This document shows positions 21,052-25,080 of a DNA stretch of 64,000 bases, piece by piece. Below the pieces are notes generated by a model. That model was not told the origin of the DNA. It searched no databases and saw only the letters and a program-made list of their open reading frames with translations. Every line of letters starts with the position of its first letter. The first letter of the stretch is position 1. The stretch comes from Litorivicinus sp. (GTDB taxonomy: Bacteria; Pseudomonadota; Gammaproteobacteria; Pseudomonadales; Litorivicinaceae): the NCBI GenBank assembly GCA_018401755.1, contig JAGYKJ010000006.1, positions 474,184 to 538,183 on the forward strand. The letters run 5' to 3'. The translations under genes were made by a program, and so were the position numbers.

Positions 21052-21510
21052 AGTGGTCAATAAAAACTGGACACCATTTTGAGTTGTTGTTCAGCTCATG
21101 CAGGAGCTAAACCCTATTGGCCTGATGCGGTCGCGTTCAATGGTAGTGCCCCAAAAGATAGCGACCGAGATCTTCCCGAGCTACCAGAACGCTCTCGTGA
21201 TCGAGTGATAGCTACGTTCTGGGCTGGCTCGCCCAAGCTTTCTCATCAGAAATCGATCGCTCATCCGGTCGAGAGGCAATCACACATCCTAACAATTTGT
21301 CGTCTCCTGATGTCTGGAGCCCGCTCGTTAAGGGGCAAAACGGCCACTAATTTTTGGGAATTGGTTTTACCAACAATTTTGCCCAAAACTTGCACGACTG
21401 GAATTTTTAAAATATTGATAAGATTGACATAAATGGCGCGCCCGAGAGAGTTCGAACCTCTGACCTTTGCCTCCGAAGGGTAACGCTCTACCGGGTTGGC
21501 GTACGGGGTG
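21052..21510. repeat. Diverged direct repeat, copy 1 (ends in degenerate tRNA-Arg)
   Basis: agtggtcaataaaaactgg...gttgttcagctcatg...ggcgcgcccgagag...; alignable along its length by eye with 24608..25080, same order and orientation. Confidence 0.8.
21434..21510 (-). pseudogene. Degenerate tRNA-Arg copy
   Basis: tggcgcgcccgagagagttcgaacctctgacctttgcctccgaagggtaacgctctaccgggttggcgtacggggtg; 3' half matches tRNA-Arg at 25004..25080, acceptor 5' strand and D-arm degenerate, anticodon changed. Confidence 0.82.
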
Positions 21511-21589
21511 ATTAATCATCGCATGAGGTCCGTTAAAACGGGGTTACGCTCATGGAGCCACACATTTGTGAGGTTCTTGTAAAACACGC

Positions 21590-21904
21590 TCACTGAGGGG
21601 CGACTTCGTGCTTCACTGCTTTGAGGTCGATGTTAAGCGCACGTAAAACGCGTAGGATCGTGTCAAAGCGCGGTTTGGATCCGGCTGATAACGCTTTGTA
21701 TAGGCTCTCTCGGCCAAGCCCGGAATCGTTAGCAATCTGAGTCATGCCGCGCGCCTTTGCAACATGCCCAATCGCGCGGATCAGTTCGTCACTGTCACCG
21801 TCTTCTAAAACCATTGATAAATATCCAGCGATATCGGCTTCGTCGCGCAGCTGGGACGCGATGTCGAACTCAGACAGGGTGGCGACATTGATTGGTTTAC
21901 TCAT
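21590..21904 (-). CDS. HigA-like addiction-module antidote (HTH, putative addiction module antidote family)
   Basis: EFDIASQLRDEADIAGYLSMVLEDGDSDELIRAIGHVAKARGMTQIANDSGLGRESLYKALSAGSKPRFDTILRVLRALNIDL. Confidence 0.9.
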   Translation of the reverse strand: MSKPINVATLSEFDIASQLRDEADIAGYLSMVLEDGDSDELIRAIGHVAKARGMTQIANDSGLGRESLYKALSAGSKPRFDTILRVLRALNIDLKAVKHEVAPQ

Positions 21905-21907
21905 TCT

Positions 21908-22204
21908 CTATTTCTCCAGCAGCTTTGCGAGGCGTTTGGCTTTTTGAATGTCTTTAGCTTGGGTGGATTTATCTCCGCCGCCGAGCATGACAATCAGCGT
22001 GTCACCCTGCATTGTGTAATACATGCGCCAACCTGGCCCAAAGAATTCCCGCATTTCATTCACGTTTTCGCCAACAGGCGTTACATCTCCCAGATTGCCT
22101 CGGCTCGCCTTCTCGATTCGTCGAGCCAAGCGGATTCGTGTTGGACTGTCTTTTAACCCATTCAGCCAGTCATCGAATTCTTGCAGGGTTTTTACAACAA
22201 TCAT
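21908..22204 (-). CDS. RelE/HigB-like toxin (phage-derived Gp49-like / addiction module killer family)
   Basis: TLQEFDDWLNGLKDSPTRIRLARRIEKASRGNLGDVTPVGENVNEMREFFGPGWRMYYTMQGDTLIVMLGGGDKSTQAKDIQKAKRLA. Confidence 0.9.
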   Translation of the reverse strand: MIVVKTLQEFDDWLNGLKDSPTRIRLARRIEKASRGNLGDVTPVGENVNEMREFFGPGWRMYYTMQGDTLIVMLGGGDKSTQAKDIQKAKRLAKLLEK

Positions 22205-22556
22205 TGTTGAACTGTATCCTTATGGATACGTACTGGCAACTTGAAATCACTAAATCCCGAATTTCTAGCGTCACCCTCAACGTTTGCAGAGGTTTAGAGA
22301 TGAGGCTTGCGATAAGACGCAGTCTGAGCACCATGAAGGTGGCAATCGATTCAGGGGAGCTGTATCAATTTGGAAGTATCAAGGAGTGAATCGCCCCCGG
22401 TTTTCAGGAGGCTTCATTACTCGAGAAGATGGAGTTATGGAAACAGGAAACCCTTTACTTCGGAGATCCGTAAATGGTTAGCGGACGCGGATCCTCATGT
22501 CCGGAGCCCGCTCTATCTGGACGACCTCCGCTGTATAAGTCCGGAGACTGGTTTCC

Positions 22557-23790
22557 TTATAGCTCGTTGACGATTGGAAGCGTCTTTAGATGTGCGTCGA
22601 TAGTTTCAACAACATCTGAATGTATCGGCAGATGCGCCTTCTCCTCGTTCCACCGCTCCATGAAGATGGAAACGGTCTCCTGAGCCGTGCTCGAGACAAG
22701 CTTCGGTGGCAGAGCGGCCTTGGCAGCAAGGTGGTCAAGCTCGTCTTTATTCAACTCGTCAAAGCGCTTTGTGCGGCTGAAATTCAGGGCCGCCTGATCT
22801 CCGATGATGTAAGGGATTGTCGACACAAAATCGTAGGCAGGAGAGAGCCGGGGATGTCGTCCATCCGGATAGATCAGCGACCAATTTTTGAGGTGCATAT
22901 CACCGTTGCCGATCATCGTGTTGAAAATCAGGCGACGGATAAATTCTGCAACGTCCCTTGATTCCGTCTCAGAGGCAATGACTTGCGCAATGTTTGCTGA
23001 GCTTGCATTTTTATACTTCCGATCAGCAAAGACGCCATAGACCTGTGCAAAGTCTTCGATATGGATACGTTCTGCATCTTGCGCCCGGTCGAAGCGTTCA
23101 ATGACGAAGGCCTTGGCGCCTAGCCGATCAACACCAGGGGGGAGATTCCGGATGGAGGTCACATCAACGAGATCGATGGCAGGCACAGAAATTCCGACCA
23201 TGCGCGCCAGCGTCATCATCGAGAACTCGTTTTCGGGGACACCGCGATACTCATTAGACGGGAGCTTTACGATCCAGTCGCCTCCGACTCCGCGTACCGG
23301 AATGGTGAGGCCACCGCTTGTATCGGTGATGGCAGAAAATTTCATCTGTACGCCAGCGAGAGAAAAGCGCATGGCGTTTTCGTGAACGTCCGGGCTCTCG
23401 CCATCGTCCAGGTCGGTATCATCGAGGAGTGGCCAGGCTTCTCCATCGGCCGGTTCGACCGTTACTGCCCCTGGCAGATCGCGCCCCAAGACCCACATGA
23501 TGAAAAACTCTCTATCAGCGTGAACTTTGGCCTTCTCCGCGAGGTATTTCCGCAAATATCCCTCCGGCAGGAGGTTGGAGAAGAAGGGCATCAGCTTCAT
23601 CTGATACGCCCTGTGGTCCGTGATCAGGTCACCATGGATGTCTTTGAAGCTAAGGCTCAGGGTGCTCCGGTTGAGGATCGTTGACATAGCCGTCGGTAAA
23701 AGCAAAGACGGTCCTCTCGCCACCCAAGTAAGTCACCGTTCCAATCAATTGGCCGTGCAGTTTCACGTTGAGGGTGGAAACGTCAGGCAT
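22557..23790 (-). pseudogene. hipA: HipA-family Ser/Thr kinase toxin, frameshifted near 23672-23679
   Basis: Downstream frame: NRSTLSLSFKD...FSNLLPEG..., GVQMKFSA..., VERFDR, NGDMHLKNWSLIY. Upstream frame from ATG at 23790: MPDVSTLNVKLHGQLIGTVTYLGGERTVFAFTDGYVNDP; joined by one extra C. Confidence 0.88.
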
Positions 23791-24379
23791 CGTCGTCCTC
23801 ATCGAGTGAATAGGCCGGTCTCACGCGTTCGTCACTATGTGCAAGCTCCGTGCTTTGGGCGAGCTCCTTACTTAGATTTCGCATGAGGTCTTGGCTGCGG
23901 CTGAGTGCCTCCGGTTGCGTTAGTGGCTCTTTAATTTTTTCCAACGCCTGACGGAGCCGCTTTAAAGATTCCGGCGCTGCAAACTGCACCTGGAAGCGCT
24001 GAAGATCGGCGAAGCTCTTCTGCAGCCTCTTTACGGCGTCGAGAGCGGGTGACTCCATCTGCAGAATTCGTAAGCGTTCTGAAATGCGGTTCCATTCTTT
24101 AACGGCTTGCCCCAAAGCCTTCGAATCTTGGCCGCTCGTCTGCTTTGAGATCATTCGCACCGCAGGCAAAGCCTTGCGCGGTACAAGCGCAAGTTCCATC
24201 TCAAGTGCATGCGCAAGGGCGAGGAGACTGGTCGCGCGCGGATCGACAGAGCTCGCCTCGATACGCGAGATTTGGGCCTGCGGCACGCCAGAGAGATCGC
24301 TCAACTCGCGTTGGCTGATGCCTTTGGCAAGCCTTGCCTTCCTCAGATTCGCGGCTATTTCCTGGGCGCGATAGCTCAT
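23783..24379 (-). CDS. hipB: HipB-like Xre-family antitoxin with long C-terminal extension
   Basis: LRKARLAKGISQRELSDLSGVPQAQISRIEASSVDPRATSLLALAHAL; 8-bp overlap with hipA start. Confidence 0.88.
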   Translation of the reverse strand: MSYRAQEIAANLRKARLAKGISQRELSDLSGVPQAQISRIEASSVDPRATSLLALAHALEMELALVPRKALPAVRMISKQTSGQDSKALGQAVKEWNRISERLRILQMESPALDAVKRLQKSFADLQRFQVQFAAPESLKRLRQALEKIKEPLTQPEALSRSQDLMRNLSKELAQSTELAHSDERVRPAYSLDEDDDA

Positions 24380-24607
24380 ATCAATGTCTTTTTCTGCATC
24401 AAAACATTATTTTAATGTATTTTAAGATATCAATTTCTAAGAATTTTTCAATATTGATGTCGTTTGCGCCATCTTAATTAGCACGTGATGCAGTAATCAA
24501 CATCGACATGTAGATCTCCATCATACCATCGAGTCTGATAATCGCATTTGCTGTGGCGAATGAGAGTTTCCCCAATTCCCAAAGGAGTGGGGGGTCTCAG
24601 CGTCTAT

Positions 24608-25080
24608 AGTGGTCAAAAAAACAGACGCGATGTTAAGTCGTTGTTCAGTTCATGTAGAGGTAACATCCTGTTGGCTCGATGCGGCCACATCCAATGGTAG
24701 TGTCCCCAAAAGAGATCGATCGAGATCCCCTCGATCGATCACAGTAGTCTCATGACCGATTGATCGCTGCGCTTTGAACTGACTTGCTTGAGAGTGTCCT
24801 ATCAGCAATCGATCTCTCTTCGGGTGGAGAGGTAATCACAGATCCTGAAAATTTAACGTGTCCTAGTGTCAGGGGGTGCAGCGGTTCATACGCCCAAAAC
24901 AGCCACTAATTTTTGGGAATTTTTTGGGAATTGTTTTTACCGACAATTTCGCCCAAAACTTGCGCGGCTAAAATTTTTAAGTAATTAATAATATTGAAAT
25001 TAATGGCGCGCCCGAGAGGATTCGAACCTCTGACCTTTGCCTCCGGAGGGCAACGCTCTATCCAGCTGAGCTACGGGCGC
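24608..25080. repeat. Diverged direct repeat, copy 2 (ends in intact tRNA-Arg)
   Basis: Alignable with 21052..21510: agtggtcaaaaaaac...gttgttcagttcatg...ccactaatttttgggaatt...cgcccaaaacttgcgcggct...taatggcgcgcccgag. Confidence 0.8.
25004..25080 (-). tRNA. tRNA-Arg(CCG)
   Basis: GCGCCCGTAGCTCAGCTGGATAGAGCGTTGCCCTCCGGAGGCAAAGGTCAGAGGTTCGAATCCTCTCGGGCGCGCCA; complete cloverleaf, anticodon CCG, encoded CCA. Confidence 0.96.

Follow-up and report, generated by a model that had tools for sequence, protein, structure and literature searches.

Diverged direct repeats beside a Litorivicinus tRNA-Arg(CCG) gene as probable ends of two related cassettes stacked in tandem

Introduction

In a 64,000-nucleotide stretch of a Litorivicinus sp. 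genome (hereafter the window), two diverged direct repeats of about 460 bp, both touching tRNA-Arg sequence, lie on either side of a pair of toxin-antitoxin (TA) loci. Each repeat is far longer than an ordinary attachment core, which raises the question of how two such copies came to flank the same genes. An earlier note on this DNA had left the choice between a segmental duplication and two nested integrations, the latter with non-coding flank carried along beside the 3' end of the tRNA. We propose, with a probability of about 0.72, that two related cassettes became stacked at a single tRNA-Arg(CCG) gene through site-specific recombination, and that each repeat marks the tRNA-side end of one of them.

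Results

Pairwise alignment confirmed the repeat along the full length of both segments. Copy A (about 21051-21508) and copy B (about 24607-25080) are identical at 351 of 473 positions (74%, E 5e-87, blastn). The similarity is not confined to the tRNA, the outcome that the earlier note had named as fatal to its claim: the arms of about 385-397 bp that remain without the tRNA are 73-75% identical, with 284 of 381 aligned bases shared between arm A (21051-21433) and arm B (24607-25003), and their Smith-Waterman score was 164, compared with a maximum of 16 over 500 dinucleotide shuffles. When the 2.19-Mb genome was searched, A and B were the only copies of the unit. The homology starts at TAGTGGTCAA in both copies and ends on the right inside the tRNA D-arm, beyond which flanking identity is at the background level, and it does not extend into the tRNA 5' flank. 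Core A, the tRNA portion of copy A, keeps a six-base match to the D-arm, TACGGG.

Both copies had been said to end in tRNA-Arg. This holds for copy B, where arm B, a 397-bp non-coding end, lies directly downstream of the 3' end of an intact tRNA-Arg(CCG) gene (25004-25080, minus strand; called by ARAGORN; Rfam tRNA model, 69.6 bits). The gene is the anchor of the array on the attL side and its position is conserved: its neighbours across the genus are cytochrome c, nagZ and rep (a rep-like helicase), and its 5' flank in the window resembles that in HIMB30. Copy A holds only the 3' portion. There, core A (21434-21492, minus strand) retains 54 of the first 59 nucleotides counted from the 3' end of the functional tRNA, with 5 changes, and then runs into unrelated DNA. 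It was not called as a tRNA gene by ARAGORN, and its 22.8 bits fall under the Rfam cut-off of 29 bits.

The sequence to the right of core A was also found in a second species. The core, the following stretch of about 100 nucleotides up to the higA stop (21493-21589) and the 3' end of higA recur in genome G006 (contig C9) with 76% identity over query positions 3-203, and the alignment reaches the last codons of higA, whose C-terminus is present in G006. On the opposite side of the core, G006 has a chromosomal flank with thiF, moaD and an FAD-oxidoreductase gene; a thiF-like flank likewise borders the island on its left in G001 and the source genome (G000). This recurrence, together with the thiF-like flank, identifies the junction at 21434-21589 as a cassette end beside an attachment core, the right arm of the hip/hig cassette. 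Since the right junction recurs in a related species, in direct contact with the chromosomal left flank, the most likely identity of copy A is that of an attachment-site scar and not of a decayed duplicated tRNA. TACGGG had suggested a decayed whole tRNA, a reading that was rejected because this stretch aligns with the element end in G006.

As claimed, the copies are separated by about 3.1 kb, which contain the higA/higB and hipA/hipB genes. The genes of the window described below are all on the minus strand. The hipB-like antitoxin gene (23783-24379) matches HTH_3 among the Pfam and NCBIfam profiles. The open-frame part of the hipA-like toxin gene (22557-23723) matches HipA_C, and matches Couple_hipA from profile position 34 only; its first 40 or so codons (MPDVSTLNVKLHGQ..., about 23656-23793) are translated in a different frame from the remainder, and the gene looks frameshifted near its N-terminus. 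The higB-like gene (21908-22204) encodes a toxin of the RelE/ParE family (TIGR02683, 119.9 bits), and the higA-like antitoxin gene (21590-21904) is of the dnstrm_HI1420 type (PF21716, TIGR02684). The first gene past arm A is a prlF-like antitoxin gene (20647-20967, profile match), followed by a yhaV-like toxin gene (20195-20650; PF11663, 190.9 bits) and an apparently orphan parD-like antitoxin gene (19681-19941, profile match); no frame readable as parE was found downstream of the latter in the region 19390-19941. Positions 1-25003 of the window belong to a variable island of about 36 kb that runs from the thiF-like gene to the tRNA-Arg (G000, contig C5, 463439-499187).

Comparison with relatives indicated that the tRNA-Arg(CCG) of this genus (HIMB30 relatives, OM252 clade) is a hypervariable insertion hotspot; HIMB30 (G009) belongs to the OM252 clade (PMC8269220). 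The 5' side of the tRNA is conserved and the cargo on its 3' side differs in nearly every species, the island measuring about 36 kb in the source genome versus about 16 kb in G001. No gene was common to the TA region of the window and the 3' side of the tRNA in the relatives read. The TA genes here are cargo only; the same slots in relatives hold transporters and metabolic genes. The cargo in G001 and HIMB30, read from translations only, includes tricarboxylate and TRAP transporters, a multicopper oxidase, cytochromes and two-partner secretion-like genes. A TRAP transporter operon also recurs: three species, the source, G008 and G012, have it in their tRNA-Arg islands (L198, 13542-16398; L048, 7649-10538; L050, 4567-7419 on the reverse strand), with amino acid identities of 82-84% for two genes and 58-60% for one.

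Copies of the tRNA 3' half number three to four each in HIMB30 and G001, where they are 2-7 kb apart. Besides the tRNA itself, two extra perfect 46-bp cores were found in G001 and three in HIMB30, all in the same direction. Distal to the internal cores, an arm of about 95 nucleotides is common to G001, G009 and G003 (seven att copies at L041, L042, L060 and L197), and one query gave three matches with identities of 81-91%; the G003 copy is near a tRNA-Cys gene at a contig start. The cargo sides of the cores do not match, except that G001 and G009 are 84% identical in their outermost left flanks. This distal arm (the type-1 model) was not found in the window or elsewhere in the source genome.

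In four other genomes, G019, G004, G021 and G020 (loci L043, L045, L046 and L047), a degenerate tRNA-Arg remnant adjoins the cytochrome c gene, and an intact tRNA with a different 5' flank lies 1.3-7 kb from the remnant. The arrangement reads as if the original tRNA had been replaced by an element carrying a whole tRNA.

The strongest competitor of our reading is a segmental duplication. A tandem doubling would have copied the tRNA together with about 390 bp of native 3' flank, after which the outer copy of the tRNA decayed and the gap was filled by TA genes. This scenario would account for arms that are unique to the source genome and for a core A with a few D-arm matches and a sub-threshold tRNA score, and a full tRNA inserted beside an old one in decay is seen in G019, G004, G020 and G021. 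However, the sequence right of core A, TACGGG included, is shared with the G006 element end, no homology reaches the tRNA 5' flank, and an arm divergence of about 26% requires a very old event retained in an island of fast turnover. We therefore regard a duplication as unlikely.

The arms themselves were examined for their nature. As coding DNA they were rejected, because their mismatches lack codon periodicity (29/34/35), and as structured RNA because their folding z-scores of -0.9 to -2.0 are unremarkable. A terminator-like hairpin is present at 24714-24740 in arm B, of which arm A keeps only part. Arm B was not found in phages, in plasmids or in the 391 other genomes searched from the order, and arm 20-mers had no match in GTDB or IMG/VR.

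Arm A has at its outer edge a sequence, TAGTGGTCAATAAAAACTGGACAC (21051-21095, minus strand), that resembles a terminus of the IS3 family, and a weaker equivalent is found in arm B at 24607-24650; this resemblance in itself does not make either arm an insertion sequence. It was recognized from matches in unrelated plasmids (query 1-45), each of them weak (E 0.03-4), because all of them begin at the same first bases; the Erwinia match abuts an rve transposase gene. Such a terminus would explain why the homology ends at the outer edge with different flanks beyond. The earlier suggestion that the unit is itself mobile or regulatory gains little from these data: both arms carry the IS3-like terminus, but no transposase could be read and the RNA folding is unexceptional. 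A 92-bp inverted repeat with 76% identity was also noted in the region (20016-20107 and 22387-22477), one copy of which has a weak match (E 0.3) to the initial part of an Azoarcus IS3-family transposase gene.

A unit of about 460 bp that is a transposable element or an IS3-derived, MITE-like remnant, inserted twice beside tRNA sequence, is very unlikely. It would suit the IS3-like left edges, the solo terminus that is present elsewhere in the source genome, and the inverted repeat with its match overlapping an IS3 transposase gene. However, IS3-family insertion sequences have a transposase between two terminal inverted repeats, whereas here there is one terminus only, the tRNA side lacks a matching inverted one, and no transposase domain was found in the three minus-strand frames of either arm. 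The unit also occurs only twice, each time at the same tRNA core.

Neither tyrosine nor serine recombinases (PF00589, PF00239) were found in or beside the arrays of 22 genomes; matches occur elsewhere, and four of the integrases examined sit near tRNA-Ser, -Phe or -Gly genes. Nor did a sister island that carries a recombinase turn up. A lone viral contig with the tRNA core proved to carry an intact tRNA-Arg beside apparent transposable-phage genes and is uninformative on the arrays. Homologous recombination (natural transformation) through tRNA and flank homology would need no site-specific recombinase, in line with this search, but it is highly improbable, as perfect 46-bp cores that end at the anticodon arm and are followed by a conserved distal arm are a site-specific signature and arms of 74% identity are poor substrates.

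Discussion

Of the two origins first considered, nested integrations with travelling flank are the better supported and a segmental duplication is the less likely, because a second species shows the right side of copy A as the end of an element, because perfect att copies of this tRNA stand in tandem in relatives, and because the homology of A and B ends within the tRNA and not in its 5' flank. Under tandem accretion, cassette 2, which begins with arm A on the prlF-yhaV side, would have inserted first, placing arm A next to the tRNA. Cassette 1, consisting of arm B, hipBA, higBA and the right arm, would then have entered the 3' half of the tRNA, restored the gene with its own core copy and displaced the old core to 21434-21492. 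Since neither cassette encodes a recombinase, integration presumably depended on an enzyme that acted in trans and does not appear in these data, or on a recombinase that was lost afterwards. We infer the order of insertion, the action in trans and the loss of activity; the two-step accretion is consistent with all boundaries.

With 5 changes in the 59 nucleotides of core A, the array in the source genome is probably a decayed relic that is no longer active, and the frameshifted hipA and orphan parD are in keeping with decay. The HIMB30 array, with its perfect cores, may still be active. A difference of 26% between the arms points to divergence in separate genomes. Against tandem accretion stand the facts that the 397-bp arm is known from two copies in one genome, so that its role as a cassette end has no independent replicate, that no third core was found at the far end of cassette 2, that neither a recombinase nor a circle junction came to light, and that the distal arms of G001 and HIMB30 are of another sequence type. 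A wider cassette system of the OM252 clade at tRNA-Arg(CCG), integron-like, with units that share a core of 46-59 bp and a short distal arm and are moved in trans by one recombinase, is a doubtful extension that we raise tentatively.

Under tandem accretion, an odd repeat becomes an old layer within the insertion hotspot that a cosmopolitan marine clade has at this tRNA. The defined end sequence, a core with an arm of about 95 nucleotides, offers a handle for finding the enzyme that moves recombinase-less cassettes.

Several known systems resemble this locus. Dehalococcoides islands at ssrA that have no integration module were described as possible cis-mobilizable elements (PMC3146451). Like the array here they are tandem, att-bounded and without integrase, and accretion was proposed for them; in Dehalococcoides, however, the serine recombinase DsiB is present on sister islands. 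In our locus, only cassette 1 combines att sites at both ends with the lack of an integrase. Tycheposons (described in PMC10872708 and PMC11389934) are tRNA-bordered cargo elements of marine bacteria. The arrays here share that layout and differ in having no tyrosine recombinase within the element, with no PF00589 match in the island. Integron cassettes and CALINs are similar as integrase-less cassettes rich in TA modules, but the sites here are tRNA 3' ends.

The closest parallel is with the additive flexible genomic islands at tRNA genes of Alteromonas (PMC4119200), Ca. Actinomarinales (PMC7771536) and Methylophilaceae (fGI-2, PMC10872708); none is described for OM252 in PMC8269220. In common with them, the locus has a conserved tRNA target with variable content (the thiF-like left flank recurring in G000, G001 and G006), partial-tRNA direct repeats at cassette ends (the 46-bp cores of G001 and G009 and the 54/59 scar), a variable number of cassettes, and metabolic or unknown cargo. 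What differs is that about 390 bp of end sequence is common to the two cassettes here, and that the distal arm of about 95 nucleotides is shared by relatives. The array is an additive genomic island, of a kind already known, and the shared cassette ends are its particular feature.
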